Source of the DNA: an uncultured Clostridium sp.
GTDB lineage: Bacteria > Bacillota > Clostridia > TANB77 > CAG-508
Length of the DNA: 5,679 nucleotides
Assembly (NCBI GenBank): GCA_947428535.1
Contig: CANEMG010000075.1
Span: 1 to 5,679 of the forward strand
Reading direction: 5' to 3'
The notes under the pieces were generated by a model, which worked only from the letters and a program-made list of their open reading frames with translations, was not told the DNA's origin and did no database searches. A program made the translations under genes and the position numbers. Positions 1-5,679 of the stretch are shown here, in pieces (the stretch's first letter is position 1; each line of letters opens with the position of its first letter).

Positions 1-600
1 TTTGGAGCAGATACAACTCAACAAGTAGAAGATGTTGAAATTTATGAAACTTTAGATTATCTTGAACAAATGGGATATGACTTAAAAGGATACGGATTCT
101 TAACTGACTATGTAGGAGATAGTGATGATGGTGTTGAAAGAGATGATGATGGTAAGATATCAAATGCAGAAAGCCAATTTATATCATCATATTTAGTTTC
201 AGATAACTATGTATATACAATAAAAAACTTTAATCAAAAAGCTTCAAATCCTATAGCAGCAATAGGACAGCATTTAGCTTCATTATTTACTTTAGGACAA
301 ACAAATCAGTTTTGGTCAAGAGGTATGATAGATATATGGCTAGATGGTGGAGTAGTTGGAAGTAGATCTCAATATTACAGTGTTTACAACTTAGGTAGTA
401 TAAATGTAGACATGGAAAAGAAAGAGTTAGAGATAAAAAGAGGATGGTTTAATAATTCCATGAAATATAACTTAGATGGTTGGACAGGAAGATATGGAAT
501 GCCAATAGATTTTTTAATATCTGTTCATTTAGCAACAATGATGCCAGACTTAGCATATGATTTGTCAACAAGTTTTGAAACAGTAATAGATCTTATGCTA
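1..600 (+). other. N-terminal block A of the giant protein, unrecognised domain
   Basis: Residues 1-200. I do not recognise a named family. The block is a mix of predicted helix and strand with distinctive aromatic motifs: VYTIKNFN (71-78), IKRGW (145-149) and WTGRYGMPIDFL (161-172), followed by the helical stretch ISVHLATMMPDLAYDL. The last is amphipathic, interrupted by His and Pro-Asp, and does not look like a membrane helix. The Trp/Gly-rich turns suggest a folded, conserved domain and not a linker. I have an unverified impression that similar motifs recur in large uncharacterised proteins of gut Clostridia. An acidic loop at residues 46-57 resembles an EF-hand calcium loop and is described as a separate entry. 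Confidence 0.5.
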
Positions 601-3600
601 CATCCAATAGGTGGAGGAACTGGAGATCAAAATACAGCAATTGGATATTATAAAATTGGAGATAGCTATAAATCATATGATGATTTTAAAGAGGCAGCAA
701 CATCAGGAATTACAGGTTCATTAAATTCTTGGAGAATAAGTAAAAAAGAAGCCAAAGCTATTATGGATGAATTTGGGATAAAAAGTCCAGAAAACTGTAT
801 GGGTACATCTGGTGTAGGAGAAGATAATGTTGATAGTGGAACTAAAACTCAAAAACTTGATTATGGTACAATGGATGTAAAATGTATTGGTGATTCTGGA
901 TATGATGATGATGATAAAGGAAAAGAAAATAAAAAAGCAGTAGTTGATGCATATAATGAAGTTATGAATACATTAAAAGGATATGGATTAACTAACGAAA
1001 TAGCAGAAGGTGAAGGATTAAAATTAACAATATCTAGTTTTGATGAGTATAAAGAAATGTTAGAAGAAAAATCAGAAGAAAATCAAGATTCTGAAAGTGC
1101 ACAATATTTTTATAAAGAACCTTCTAGAAGTTTAACTAAACAGTTAACTTGGCAAACTGATGATGATGGGTATCAATCGTATACTGCAGAATTAACATTA
1201 ACTTATAACAACTATTCTATGAGTATAACTTCAGCCACAGTAGCAGGCGGAGGAAACACATTTAATGTTTTTAATAATATGTCAATAACATATAATATAA
1301 TAGGAACTTGGACACAAGAAAGAATAGATGAATGGATGGAACAAAATAATGTAGATGTTCCAGAAGAAGCAAGATGTTCACAAGTAGATGGAGAAGAAGT
1401 TTGTTCAGCTTGTAGATCATATGTACAAAAAATATATGATTATTTAAAAAAAGCAGATGTTTCTAATTTAGAAATATATCAACCATACATAGCTAAAGTA
1501 ACAGATCACTGGTACAGAGATGTATATTTTGTATCTGACCCTGGGAAAGAATTTGTAGATTATGATTATGATTATGAAGCTGTAATGAAGGAAAGATGGA
1601 CTTTATACGAGACATATGGTTCAAGTAATCCAGATAAAGAGGGAGAATATAAATTATATGAAATAAATGACGATGGTACATATAAGAAAAATGGTGATGA
1701 TTATGTATTATTTGATGGAACACAAGAAGAAGCTTCATCAGCAGGAAAAAAAGTAGCTAAAAAAGCTAAAATGAAAAAAATATCAGATATGTCCGATGAT
1801 TTAAATTGGCAACAAGTAAGTGGTTTATTATCTGCATATAAAATAGAGGGTGTAACTCAAGAGGACTTCCAAGCAGTTTATCCAGATGTTGGTGAAGATG
1901 ATAAAGATTATGAAATTAAGAAAAATGTATTTGTTGCTATAAGGACAACAGGAAATGTAACTCAAATGGGTGAAGGTCAAAGGACAGAAACTAATCCTAA
2001 GATTAAAAAAATGTTTTTAAAGAATAGATATTTTAAATATGATGGTTCTCAGGAAACAGCTGAGATAATAACAGCTTTAAGGAAAAGTATAGACTCAGAA
2101 GGATATTATGGACCAGTAAAAGGTCAAAACTTTAGCGGAGATGATGTAGATTATACAAAAACAACAGCAGAAGTTGATGGAAAAACTTATAAAGTATCAG
2201 ATTATTCAGGAGAAGTATCATTAAATCAAGATTCTCTAAATGCTTTCAGTATGTTAGAAAATGAACATACATTAGATGCAGATTACATATATAGAGACTT
2301 TAAAGAATTGGCAGTAGAATTAGGTTACTTTGAAAAAGAGGAATTAACAGATGAAACACCAAGATTATTGCAATTTTTAATACCAGAAATAGGTTCAGGA
2401 CCTTCTGCAGGAAGTGAAACTTCTAGTAATGTAAGTGGAGAAAATATAGTAGCAGCTGCTGATAGAGTTTATGAGTATTGTAAAAAACATGGATATATTT
2501 ATGAAAATAATAAAAACGCAAGTGGACTTATAGATATAACAAGAGAAGATGGTACATCAACAATCGGAACTAAATCAACTAACTGTTCAAGTTTTGTTGC
2601 TGCTATACTAATAGAAGCAGGTTTTTATGATAAGGATGCTTTTATTGAATCAAATGGAAAATCTTGTATGCCATATGCTAAAGATTTTTGGAGATTTGGC
2701 AAAAGTGGTAGCGAGATGGGAGTGAAAACAACTGGAAGTGAAAGAAATCATAAAAAAATGATTGAACATATGAAGCAAAAGTGTTCAGAAATGGAATTAG
2801 TACAAGATAGTTGGGATGGTAAAAATGATGCTAGACATCCTGGAAAAATTGATAAAAGTAAGCTTAAAGCCGGAGATATATTGGCAGATGCTCATAATGC
2901 AATAAGTGATGTCGGAGGCCATGTTGCAATATATGATGGAAATGGAAAAATTTATGAAAGTAGTGGTGGTGGAGTTTATCACAGGGATTTTAGTGAAGAT
3001 AAGTTTTCAAGAGTATTAAGAGTAACAGGTGGAGTAAGTGGAGATGGAGCAGGATTATCTGGATTCCCAAATAGAGCAATAGACAAAAATGAGCATGAAT
3101 ATGGAACAATGATACATTCAAAAGGAGACATAGATGCAAATAAAGCCAATACTTTAAAAAGTTTGATAAAAGATGCAATTGTAACAGCAGCAACTGAGGA
3201 AAGTAGTGATGATAGTAGTCAAGAAGGAAATACAGTAAATGGAATTTCATCTGAAGCAAGTCAAAGGCTAGATGAAACTGTTAGTGCAATAACAGCACAA
3301 GATAATACAGATAGTTTATTTGTAAAAGTTGGTGTAATTACATCAGATGATTCATCAAGTTCATCTTCTTCATCAAGTTCATCAAATACTTCAAGTAGTT
3401 CAAGTTCATTATTATCACTTGAAGAATGGTGGGAAGAAACCCAAAAAATGTTTGATATTTATAAAAGTGAAGGATGGGTATATTCTGATCATGGAGCAGG
3501 AACAAGTAAAGGATGTAATGCAAACAAAACTTTTGAAGAGGCTCACGATAGTGGACATCATGATGTAGACTGTTCAATTGGAGCTTCATGGATGTTACAA

Positions 3601-5679
3601 AAACTAGGTGCATTGCAAGGATCTAAAACATTTGCATCAGGTCTTGGAAGTGGAGGAACTCTATCTGGAGAGTGTGCTCAAGACTTAATAGATGCTGGAG
3701 CAGATGCGTTTGTACCAAAAGGAAGTGTGGATTTTACCAATGCAGCTAATAATGGAGAATTAGAACCAGGAGATGTCTTATTTTATGATGGACATGTTAG
3801 TATATATTGTGGTGACAGTTGGGAAGGAGGAGGAACAACATTTTGTTGGGATACAGGTGCAGATAAGGGAATTCAAGGTGGTGGACCAAGAGATGATTCA
3901 TGGGAAGACAGACCTATAAAATTAATAGTTAGATTTCCATTAGGTAATTCAACCAAACGTGAAGGTAAACCATATGAAGGATATTTAGGAAATGAAGCAG
4001 TAGTATCACCTGTAACAGGAATTTTATTAGAATATGGAACTTATGATGGAAAAGAAAAAGATTCTGTAACAGGAGAAGTTTATAGAACTAATATAGATTT
4101 AAAATATGGAACAGGATTACTTAAACCTACACCAGAAAATACAGGAGATGAAAATAATACTCAAACACAAAATACTGTAAAAACCGAGGGAAGAACTCAA
4201 GTAGATAAAGTAGGGTATGCGAAAATATTAGTTTTAGATAAAGAAAATTACAAAAAGATTGAGCAAAAATTACTGAGTGAGTCAAGATGGTCAGACAGCT
4301 TTTTAAGTAGTAATGGAAAATATAGGGATATAAACGATTTAACTGAAAAGCAGATAACTGATAAAAATAATCCTTGGACAGACATAGATAAAACATTATA
4401 TGGATATAAAGAATTTGCGGAAAGTTATGAAAATTATGGAATAGCTGGAAATGTAATATATATAGAAGGATTTAAAGCAGAAATGCCAGATGAAGAATTT
4501 GATATAGAGGCTGATGCAGAAACAAAATCACCAAAAGGAGAAGAAATAAAAATATCAGATTTTGAAAAAGTAACTATGAATAATTTTTCTGGTGGAAAAA
4601 TAAGTGATTCTGAGGATTTATTAGAATCATTATATGAAAAAGATAAAGACTATAAACTAGCAAGTAAAAAGGCAACAGAAAAATTAAAGGCAGAAAATAT
4701 TCTAAAAGAGACAGCAATTTCATCATTATATGTAAATGGACTAAAGGTTATAAAAGAAGGAACAATAATAGGAAGAACAATAACAGATAGAGAATTGATA
4801 GTTGATTACAGAGAAGAAAATTATGAAGATTATAGAACACCATCAGATGCTTCAAATGATGATTCTGCTTCTGAAGATTCAAGCAACAATTCAATTTCAG
4901 ATACAACTGAGTCAAAGGATAAAGTAATCGGAAATTATTTAAGAATAATAATGAGAGATTTAGATAAAACAGTAGTAGAAAATGTTGAAGATTATATGAA
5001 ATTAGATGATGTTGGAGAAGAAGAGGAAAAGGGATTAGATACAAAATTCCCAGAAGTTTTCTTGTTCTGGTTAGGAGTTTTGGAAGAAGGAGCTTGTGAA
5101 GGTAAATATGATCAGGGCGATTACTACGGTTATGAAGTTTTAGCTGATAATGCTGGAAATACAACTGCATTTGGACTAACAGCAAGTGTAGCTGGACAAG
5201 GAAAAATTCCAGAAATGTATCCAGATTTTGAGAAACATGTGAAAGAAGGAAAGGTTCCAAAAAAAGAAGCACAAGATGTATTTGTTTTAGCATTAGAAGC
5301 AGCAAGAGAATATATTATTGGAGAAGATGGTTCAGGAGGTAAAATAACAGATACTACGAAATTATCTGAACCAGAATTGGATGCATTGTGTGATTTATAT
5401 CATGCTAGCCCTTCAGAATGTCAACAAGTATGTGAAATTTATAATTCTAGTAAAAATTTAACGGTAGCAGACTTTGAGAATCATTGGGGAACAAATACAA
5501 ATTACGAAAAACAATTAAAATCTAGAGCACATTGTAGAGGAATACTTGCTACTGAAGAAAGGTATTTGTTATATAATGCTAATGAAAAAGAATGTGAGTT
5601 CTTATCTGAAACACCATGGACAGAATTTTGTGGAGGTACACCATCTACCCAATTATATATATTAAAGTTGTGGAGGAAA
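1..5679 (+). CDS. Giant multidomain peptidoglycan hydrolase-like protein, partial at both ends
   Basis: Frame 1 is open for 1893 codons with no stop, and codon use is uniform throughout (AGA Arg, A/T-ending codons, TGG Trp). The first codon is Phe and the last is Lys, so both ends lie outside the window. Visible order: three unrecognised blocks (residues 1-800), an NlpC/P60-like hydrolase (813-1008), a Ser-rich linker, a second NlpC/P60-like hydrolase (1140-1312), a beta-type and possibly degenerate M23-like region (1321-1670), and a T4-type lysozyme-like domain (1681-1893). No hydrophobic run long enough for a membrane helix is seen, so any signal peptide or anchor must lie upstream. The protein is acidic with many Asp/Tyr/Ser-rich linkers, as in exported surface proteins. 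Inferred role: local cell-wall opening, possibly for a conjugation machine or phage tail. The coding call is near certain, the hydrolase roles are likely, and the biological context is unproven. Confidence 0.96.
136..171 (+). other. EF-hand-like acidic loop (possible calcium site)
   Basis: Residues 46-57 read ERDDDGKISNAE. Compared with the 12-residue EF-hand loop, position 3 is Asp, 5 is Asp, 6 is Gly, 8 is Ile and 12 is Glu, all canonical. Position 1 is Glu where Asp is usual. Only one loop is seen, the flanking helices are not obvious, and the whole protein is rich in Asp, so chance resemblance is quite possible. Confidence 0.25.
1375..1413 (+). other. Three-cysteine cluster C-x8-C-x2-C
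   Basis: C459, C468 and C471 lie in a 13-residue stretch ending in CSAC. No fourth nearby Cys or paired His completes a classical zinc ribbon: H503 is about 30 residues downstream and the other cysteines of this block (C266, C295) are far upstream. CSAC resembles a CxxC redox or disulfide site, but no thioredoxin fold is recognised around it. In an exported protein a local disulfide is the simplest reading. Confidence 0.4.
1558..1575 (+). repeat. Short in-frame tandem repeat, three copies of gattat
   Basis: Three perfect copies of the hexamer gattat encode Asp-Tyr three times (residues 520-525) inside an acidic, tyrosine-rich stretch. The repeat keeps the reading frame and is too short to be more than a low-complexity coding motif. 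Copy-number change by slippage would be in frame. Confidence 0.6.
1747..1779 (+). other. Lysine-rich basic patch between acidic blocks
   Basis: Residues 583-593 (KKVAKKAKMKK) contain seven lysines in eleven residues and no acidic residue, in a protein that is otherwise strongly acidic. The patch separates block B from block C and probably forms a flexible or helical linker. It could contact anionic wall polymers such as teichoic acid, but that is speculation. Confidence 0.35.
1780..2400 (+). other. Block C: unrecognised domain before the first hydrolase
   Basis: Residues 594-800. It begins with a helical part (LNWQQVSGLLSAYKI, 601-615), then a basic stretch around residues 664-680 (NPKIKKMFLKNRYFKYD). 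It ends in a distinctive segment with ENEHTLDADYIYRDFKEL (753-770) followed by VELGYFEKEEL and a Pro-containing tail (IPEIGSG). The dense mix of aromatic and charged residues in the last part suggests a compact helical domain. I cannot assign a family. It sits directly before the first papain-like hydrolase, separated by a short Ser/Gly linker (GPSAGSETSSNVSG), so it could be a prodomain, a spacer or a targeting module. Confidence 0.45.
2437..3024 (+). other. NlpC/P60- or CHAP-like cysteine hydrolase domain 1
   Basis: Residues 813-1008. The expected nucleophile is C862 in TNCSSFVAAILIEAGF, matching the N-terminal helix of papain-fold NlpC/P60 enzymes (D/N-C-S-x-F-V). The general base is H974 in GGHVAIYDG, preceded by LKAGDI, which corresponds to the typical L-x-P/A-GD-ahead-of-His arrangement. 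The next strand, GKIYESSG, offers E986 as third polar residue. Cys-to-His spacing is 112 residues, longer than the usual roughly 50-75 of the family. The extra length lies in residues about 885-945 and is rich in Lys/Met/Glu. Enzymes of this fold cut stem-peptide or amide bonds in peptidoglycan. Exact bond specificity cannot be read from the sequence. C827, C889 and C928 are further cysteines of unknown role. Confidence 0.8.
3181..3408 (+). other. Low-complexity linker with serine tract between the two hydrolase domains
   Basis: Residues 1061-1136. The first part is polar and acidic (TEESSDDSSQEGN). A more ordered short segment follows (SQRLDETVSAITAQ, then LFVKVGVIT, 1107-1114). The end is a serine tract of 11 Ser, then Asn-Thr, then 6 Ser (residues 1118-1136). 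The serine codons are mixed (TCA, AGT, TCT), so this is selected composition and not a single-codon expansion. It probably acts as a flexible hinge letting the two catalytic domains move independently. Confidence 0.75.
3421..3936 (+). other. NlpC/P60- or CHAP-like cysteine hydrolase domain 2
   Basis: Residues 1141-1312. The likely nucleophile is C1191 in HHDVDCSIGASWMLQKLG, and the likely general base is H1265 in DGHVSIYCG, preceded by LEPGDVLFY, a strong L-x-PGD signature. The following strand supplies D1284 (FCWD) as a candidate third residue. Cys-to-His spacing is 74, close to CHAP/NlpC-type enzymes. The lead-in MFDIYKSEGWVYSD aligns with VYEYCKKHGYIYEN of domain 1 (identical or similar at most positions), so both belong to the same subfamily and may stem from a duplication. 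Extra cysteines (C1172, C1225, C1270, C1282) could form disulfides. Substrate bond unknown; probably a peptidoglycan amidase or endopeptidase. Confidence 0.8.
4126..4200 (+). other. Thr/Asn/Gln-rich linker within the beta-type region
   Basis: Residues 1376-1400 are dominated by Thr, Asn, Gln, Glu and Pro (for example ENTGDENNTQTQNTVKTE), with almost no hydrophobic residues. It separates the VVSPVTG-containing part from the segment beginning VGYAKILVLD. It probably marks a flexible loop or the boundary between two subdomains. Confidence 0.6.
4840..4920 (+). other. Ser/Asp-rich acidic linker
   Basis: Residues 1614-1640 consist almost entirely of Ser, Asp, Asn, Glu and Thr (start PSDASNDDSASED). 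It falls between the segment IKEGTIIGRT...DYREENYEDYR and the strand VIGNYLRIIMRD. If those are parts of one beta barrel, this is a long disordered loop inside the fold and not a boundary between domains. Confidence 0.65.
5041..5679 (+). other. T4-type (GH24/GH108-like) lysozyme domain, C-terminal
   Basis: Residues 1681-1893. A hydrophobic helix FLFWLGVLEEGA ends in E1696, the expected catalytic Glu. The strand/turn LADNAGNTTAFGLT supplies D1716 and T1722 with the same Asp-x5-Thr spacing as D20/T26 of T4 lysozyme. Helices follow that match the family order: KKEAQDVFVLALEAAREYI, then LSEPELDALCDLY (as in 'L-x-x-x-x-x-DAL'), and late KSRAHCRGILATEERYLLY, at the place of the usual GL-x-x-RR-x-x-E helix. 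The Glu-to-Asp spacing is 20 compared with 9 in T4, from an insertion rich in Gly/Asp/Tyr. Seven cysteines (1699, 1797, 1807, 1811, 1845, 1865, 1877) are unusual and may form disulfides. The expected role is cleavage of the N-acetylmuramic acid to N-acetylglucosamine bond. GH108-like enzymes are an alternative. The domain appears nearly complete, so the protein may end soon after the window. Confidence 0.72.
5671..5677 (+). promoter_or_regulatory. Shine-Dalgarno-like GGAGGA at the window end
   Basis: The last bases contain tggagga, a strong match to the anti-16S core used in Firmicutes. It is still inside the open frame (reading Leu-Trp-Arg-Lys). If the giant gene stops just beyond the window, this could be the ribosome binding site of a tightly coupled next gene. 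No start codon is visible to confirm it, and similar GGAGG strings occur elsewhere inside the gene (for example near 3828), so chance is a real option. Confidence 0.2.

Follow-up and report, generated by a model that had tools for sequence, protein, structure and literature searches.

Exchange of a C-terminal domain together with a small membrane-protein gene in giant predicted wall hydrolases of uncultured Clostridia

Results

Gene content of the window

The window (the whole stretch of DNA that was analyzed, 5,679 nucleotides, positions 1..5679 on the + strand) consists of most of one gene, which encodes a giant protein with three predicted wall-degrading domains. The following features were delimited, with residues numbered from the start of the window.

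1..615, + strand: scaffold segment N1 (residues 1-205), a profile segment common to relatives
616..1392, + strand: scaffold insert of variable length (residues 206-464); the N1-N2 gap differs among relatives and is short in some
1393..2397, + strand: scaffold segments N2 and N3 (residues 465-799), a well conserved part of the giant
2398..3060, + strand: optional insert, NlpC/P60 papain-fold domain (residues 800-1020; C862, H974; Pfam NLPC_P60 4.2e-6)
3061..3156, + strand: conserved joint C1 (residues 1021-1052)
3157..3960, + strand: slot A (residues 1053-1320), with a second papain-fold domain at about residues 1140-1312 (C1191, H1265)
3961..4980, + strand: beta module B1/B2 (residues 1321-1660), a spacer between both slots
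4981..5679, + strand: slot B (residues 1661-1893), lysozyme-like domain of T4 type, type B5 (E1696, D1716, T1723)

Residue 1 of the window corresponds to residue 104 of the complete protein P0002, which has 1992 residues and a single hydrophobic stretch at approximately residues 48-89, as judged by hydropathy. A single N-terminal membrane anchor is predicted for the giant, with its helix just upstream of N1 and outside the window. The contig ends near the end of the gene, P0002 differs from the window protein in the last few residues, and no neighboring genes are present on the contig. An AF2 model of residues 1-800 had a mean pLDDT of 86.3, and a structural match for this scaffold of about 800 residues was not found in this analysis.

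An earlier note on this DNA had proposed three hydrolase domains in one polypeptide. This was confirmed, with assignments that stand at unequal strength. The profile searches recovered the NlpC/P60 domain of residues 800-1020 by a Pfam match above the cut-off, accompanied by Cys and His motifs, and the fold of this region was poorly modeled. Pfam missed slot B of the window, and its link to lysozymes came from a comparison of profile A3 with the PDB lysozyme 6et6 (E 7.9e-4); the Glu-Asp-Thr triad was placed by eye in a region where the model is poor. Relatives of type B5 were found, together with their partner genes, in L022, L033, and L044. The beta module had no convincing relative in the Pfam and PDB scans. 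A poly-serine linker was observed ahead of the second papain domain, at approximately residues 1118-1136 (window 3352-3408).

Distribution of the family and conservation of the scaffold

Matches to P0001 were obtained in 29 of the 56 genomes, comprising 27 of the 36 from the same genus and two weak ones (~1e-5) elsewhere in the order. In a wider draw of 391 genomes of the class, the window's own genome alone matched at 1e-15. Among the genomes searched, all strong-scoring members of the giant family belong to a single genus of uncultured Clostridia. Their habitat is presumably the gut, an assumption based on one sheep rectum source and otherwise on project names. Between species of this one genus the number of giants varies from none to many, with some species having one and others several in a row; seven matching frames were counted in genome G001 and six in G017.

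The segment order N1, N2, N3, C1, B1, B2 was constant wherever the segments were found across 57 giant entries (several of them fragments, and some divergent ones with B1 undetected), barring stray second hits. Two regions were exchanged: slot A, between C1 and B1, and slot B, after B2. As in polymorphic toxins, a conserved scaffold is combined with a variable C-terminal domain in the giants. The arrangement of three hydrolase domains noted earlier is not general in the family. The first papain domain is an optional NlpC insert between N3 and C1, present in 7 entries (5 distinct proteins) of the 174 that could be judged among the 177 given. The larger point, beyond the view from a single contig, is the exchangeable catalytic slots, the tandem arrays, and the cognate small gene described below.

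Domain types in slots A and B

Slot A was occupied by NlpC/CHAP-like, C39-like (Pfam 7e-8), and GDSL-like (0.008, below cut-off) domains and by an unrecognized type. Slot B of the first set fell into 15 BLAST groups, three of which were entries with hardly any sequence. G009_4 and G013C25_1, in which scarcely any slot B is present, have no partner gene downstream. When 120 database relatives were added, 11 single-linkage groups were obtained among 163 entries. In a domain scan of 13 slot-B types, with one member each, the recognized types included phage tail lysozyme (1e-24), SleB-type cell wall hydrolase (6e-8), glucosaminidase (2.5e-9), and M23 (6e-12); a weaker match to phage lysozyme (0.001) was below the cut-off, and B10 matched a cell wall hydrolase at 0.026 only. 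No wall-hydrolase Pfam family was matched by the scanned members of B0, B1, B2, B3, B5 (the type of the window), and B9, i.e. 6 of the 13 types. Types B2, B5, B9, and B11 were assigned as lysozyme-like through the joint lysozyme profile.

Precomputed Pfam assignments for 120 of the 330 relatives listed contained only PF00877, PF13529, PF07486, PF18013, PF01832, PF05257, and PF01551, with none for most entries. Our own Pfam scans of relatives added a GDSL trace and one metallo-beta-lactamase fold. The latter, also one of the 13 slot-B types scanned, occupies slot B of P0087, a database relative, at approximately residues 1640-1915 (Pfam 4e-5), and we take it to be reminiscent of wall-teichoic-acid or ComEC-type hydrolases. 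By eye, slot B of P0100 resembles a 3D/RlpA-type domain. No nuclease or deaminase type was seen among the slot variants in the domain scans. For the window and for part of the slot types of its relatives, sequence and fold predict that the slot domains are wall hydrolases, which would be enzymatically active.

The partner gene

Giants with a slot B are as a rule accompanied by a small gene of approximately 170-240 codons, mostly downstream, whose product has one hydrophobic N-terminal stretch. These partner genes form one divergent family, for which no convincing Pfam, PDB, or named relative was obtained with two partners and the family profile. Outside genome G013, a partner was located within 1.5 kb of the giant for 37 of 42 closed giants with a slot B. 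This count omits contig-cut entries and those in which slot B was not delimited (G012a_0, Lap018_11, and G015_3, with a partner; G031_5, without one). The five giants of the 42 that have no partner lie in the B2 runs of G001 and G017, each of which is headed by one partner, an arrangement that fits an inhibitor and hardly a stoichiometric subunit. Of whole-genome partner matches below 1e-20, 33 of 35 adjoin giants; the remaining two are located in G043, beside a wall-hydrolase carrier of another kind, and in G025, at a contig end. A second partner-like remnant was noted at L056:2013-2531 (profile E 1.8e-12) with no giant beside it, and is perhaps an orphan partner.

Genome G013 differs in that a partner was detected for none of its eight slot-B giants, whereas each toxic domain of a polymorphic toxin system should come with an immunity gene; for this reason the giants were not classed as a polymorphic toxin with immunity. 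The giants of G013 are scattered over several contigs (L037, L038, L039, L074, L075, L076, and L078).

Exchange of slot B together with the partner

The pairing was evaluated with 37 giant-partner pairs picked by adjacency, four of them with an upstream partner. Close relatives were kept in the counts (ERR94 with G033, and BRZ with, by inference, G012), and both trees were quick ones, the partner family having long branches. On the partner tree of 37 entries, the eight types with at least two members required 8 changes, the minimum being 7, and none of 200 shuffles reached a value as low. For the comparison with the giant core, 35 entries were used, since G012b_0 and BRZa_0 were dropped for a missing core. 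Slot-B type required 11 changes on the partner tree versus 22 on the giant-core tree; as there are 11 slot-B types, at least 10 changes are needed.

Slot A served as a control with 32 entries, three more being omitted since both labels had to exist. Slot A required 11 changes on the partner tree versus 7 on the core tree, and slot B required 9 on the partner tree versus 19 on the core tree. Shuffling reached the observed value in 2 of 200 runs when slot A was mapped on the partner tree, likewise in 2 of 200 with slot B on the core tree, and in none of 200 in the other two cases. Slot A thus mainly follows the giant and slot B mainly follows the partner; in the two opposite combinations, some clustering remains.

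The same pairing was found in G043, a genome of another family that was not used in defining the groups. Its carrier protein of 1353 residues matches no giant scaffold profile, and a B3 domain (best E 3e-70) makes up the last 230-245 residues of this carrier. The six best matches of the neighboring gene product are the six B3 partners among the 37. The variable domain and the neighboring gene are exchanged as a unit, again as in polymorphic toxins.

Genomic setting of the giants

The locus of 35 giants was mapped on the core tree. Eleven lie in operons that resemble those of type IV secretion systems (T4SS-like operons). The other 24, which are closely related to the window, are located behind transketolase genes and frequently form tandem arrays. 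The locus label changes once on this unrooted tree, at support 100; we infer that the position in the T4SS-like operon is ancestral. In the close kin, genes for an addA-type helicase and a membrane protein are followed by two transketolase genes and then by the giants. Where the stretch extends that far, ftsE and ftsX come next, and after them genes for a coiled-coil protein and an S41-type protease; all of these names were given by eye and not through a database. In G018, the window's 81% relative is also located behind transketolase genes.

The T4SS-like setting was found in 10 genomes with 11 giants (G002, G003, G005, G007, G011, G014, G021, G026, G027, and G035). Upstream of the giant in these genomes are single-pass proteins of approximately 320 and 180 aa and large membrane proteins. 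In nine of the ten, the stretch extends as far as genes for VirB4, PrgI, and pilin-like proteins; the contig of G035 ends before them. Family support was scanned with Pfam and NCBIfam on G026, G027, and one piece of G002. VirB4 matched the CD1110 family NF045971 at 2e-61, below its curated cut-off; the TraG P-loop matched at 1e-14, above cut-off; T4SS_pilin matched at up to 1.1e-7, above cut-off in one protein; and PrgI matched at 1e-5, narrowly missing its cut-off. Support for the VirB6-like label is weak (4e-4). Pfam and PDB gave none for a VirB8-like identity of the protein of about 320 aa, which was labeled from its position and one membrane helix. The interpretation in the earlier note is partly supported, and its suggestion of a wall-opening protein points in the right direction: in relatives, the gene is located at the end of a T4SS-like operon. 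Two tandem giants, each with one partner gene, were observed inside the T4SS-like operon of G035 (L072 with L091). In G030, a frame of at least 2998 residues (L136:11006-19999) has a start that resembles the VirB6-like protein of the operon; the next 20 kb (L147) are masked.

A VirB4 match of at least 60% identity, partial ones included, was detected in 43 of the 56 genomes of the order, and the assemblies of G003, G007, G011, G014, and G021 have a fragmented VirB4. The window's own genome has a VirB4 at 83% identity on a contig other than that of the window. Among the 36 genomes of the genus, 24 have both a giant and VirB4, three a giant alone, three VirB4 alone, and six neither (Fisher p 0.0027, kinship not corrected). 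The three genomes with a giant alone (G012, G022, and G023) had no close VirB4, and a search with the protein from the VirB8 position found nothing in them either, so that a giant can persist without this machine; at least there, it would work without this T4SS or with another, unless the assemblies miss it. Two genomes with arrays, G001 and G020, have a T4SS operon elsewhere that is giant-free in the stretches read.

T4SS-like operons with pilin arrays were observed at L083:1588-3582 (G026) and L100 (own genome, G000:C108). No match to the relaxase family PF03432 was found inside the T4SS-like operon stretches read, these two among them, and the operon is likely to be a chromosomal, inherited machine. 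The VirD4 profile PF02534 was matched in 53 of the 56 genomes, and in 51 of these the match was at least as good as 1e-47. In the five genomes in which its surroundings were read, the VirD4-like coupling protein is encoded apart from the T4SS operon, among housekeeping-type genes with dnaJ-like, sbcCD-like, and prfA-like neighbors recognized by eye (G000, G014, G017, G020, and G029; L143, L144, L145, L146, and L149). Hydrolases at T4SS loci of three other families of the order were of different kinds: M23 (G036, G045), tail lysozyme with M23 (G043), phage lysozyme (G055), and C39 with an amidase just below cut-off (G050).

Discussion

Relation to known systems

The conjugation hydrolases PrgK of pCF10, TraG of pIP501, and Orf14 of Tn916 (CwlT) are smaller than the giants. 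They have features that are also predicted for the giants, namely a membrane anchor, one or more extracellular wall hydrolase domains, and a combination of glycosidase and papain-fold domains (PMC12857230; PMC11323569). What sets the giants apart is their scaffold of about 800 residues and the placement of the putative glycosidase at the C-terminus. They also have two slots that are open to exchange and a small cognate gene, and they form tandem arrays at a distance from the T4SS operon. In the same sources, PrgK is described as membrane-anchored with three extracellular domains in the order LytM-muramidase-CHAP (PMC11323569; PMC12857230). Since proteins of this type are known, polypeptides with several hydrolases are already known, and the number of domains does not make the window protein the new class that the earlier note had envisaged.

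In Xanthomonas, the pairing of X-Tfe and X-Tfi proteins (the lysozyme-like XAC2609 with XAC2610) likewise joins a wall hydrolase to a cognate protein, and the immunity proteins guard against self-damage by the lysozyme-like T4SS effector (excerpts of PMC10933484). The X-Tfes, however, are translocated substrates with a VirD4-binding domain (excerpts of PMC6536674), whereas a membrane anchor of their own is predicted for the giants, and no VirD4-binding domain of this kind was found in scans of the window. Polymorphic toxins such as LXG, CDI, and WapA share with the giants a conserved scaffold, a variable C-terminal domain, and a cognate neighboring gene (compare PMC3482391 and PMC5555719). The recognized variable domains of the giants, in contrast, are wall hydrolases or, once, a metallo-beta-lactamase fold, and their second variable slot follows the giant and not the partner. 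Chromosomal T4SSs, mostly without a relaxase and with pilin arrays, occur in Patescibacteria, one species of which has wall hydrolases just downstream of virB4 (excerpts of PMC12102498). These belong to another phylum, and a VirB1 with variable tips and a partner is not described in those excerpts. Within the titles and abstract openings covered by a literature search, exchangeable tips with cognate partners in the VirB1-like class were not found. What is new is that the C-terminal domain of the giants travels with a small single-pass membrane gene.

Interpretation and alternatives

We lean, with somewhat better than even confidence, toward the giant being a membrane-anchored wall opener as in a T4SS-like machine, in which slot B is exchanged together with a gene whose single-pass product likely inhibits it. 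The giant would be a VirB1/PrgK-like wall hydrolase that descended from such a subunit. The co-exchange of slot B and partner, kept on an unrelated carrier, suggests a cognate inhibitor, which would be tethered to the membrane. The scaffold may hold the catalytic tips off the membrane, slot A may cut or bind peptides, and slot B may cut glycan. The membrane-tethered partner would silence glycan-cutting slot B on the producer, or protect the producer from its kin. Parallels are the muramidase of PrgK, which is restrained by the other domains of that protein (PMC11323569), and the X-Tfi proteins of Xanthomonas. In the lineage of the window, the gene stands apart from the secretion operon and has multiplied; we read the result as a repertoire of tips, suited to different walls, that would act where cells touch.

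The operon position and the co-occurrence with VirB4 would also be explained if the giant were a T4SS hydrolase of the ordinary VirB1/PrgK-like kind and the small protein activated it, anchored it, or served as a docking factor specific to one type of tip. PrgK moreover has another T4SS protein, PrgL, as a binding partner, and domains within PrgK itself keep its activity in check (PMC11323569). We nevertheless consider this reading rather unlikely, because a single partner heads runs of several giants of the same type and giants are kept in three genomes without this VirB4; a single channel should also need no tandem arrays of different tips. It is less probable still that slot B and partner are paired through the hitchhiking of adjacent genes without functional contact. 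Slot B lies at the 3' end and as a rule directly before the partner, so that one crossover would move both, but the pairing also holds where the partner is upstream with the whole giant between (G020_10, Lap018_6, G001_20, and G017_13), and on the unrelated carrier of G043. Remodeling of the producer's own wall, for example in division, is suggested by the location of the close-kin genes between the transketolase genes and those for ftsE, ftsX, and the coiled-coil protein. We regard it as the least probable of these, given that T4SS-like operons house other relatives, the locus having changed once on the tree, and that the number of giants ranges so widely within one genus; exchange of a cognate partner would also be unexpected for a housekeeping function.

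A bolder version of the favored reading, a wall opener with a likely inhibitory partner, is that the giants form a surface-tethered polymorphic lysin arsenal, in which interchangeable tips, each with a cognate membrane-bound immunity protein, breach or kill neighboring Gram-positive cells on contact. We put this forward tentatively, as a possibility that falls short of being probable.

Conjugation wall hydrolases are usually viewed as auxiliary parts with fixed domains. The tip of the giants departs from this picture in varying like that of a polymorphic toxin, and a small gene is matched to it. Provided that the partner acts as an inhibitor, the giants and their partners would be a set of cognate enzyme-inhibitor pairs acting on Gram-positive walls. 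They would also bear on how a Gram-positive donor can open the wall and yet escape lysis, a question that the discussion of PrgK leaves unanswered (PMC11323569). As the tip is exchanged together with a gene that likely shields against it, the wall-opening part of a conjugation-type secretion machine may have been turned into a set of weapons or lock-picks. Should the lysin arsenal prove true, the giants would represent a Gram-positive polymorphic system of a new kind, with the wall as the sole target of its payload.
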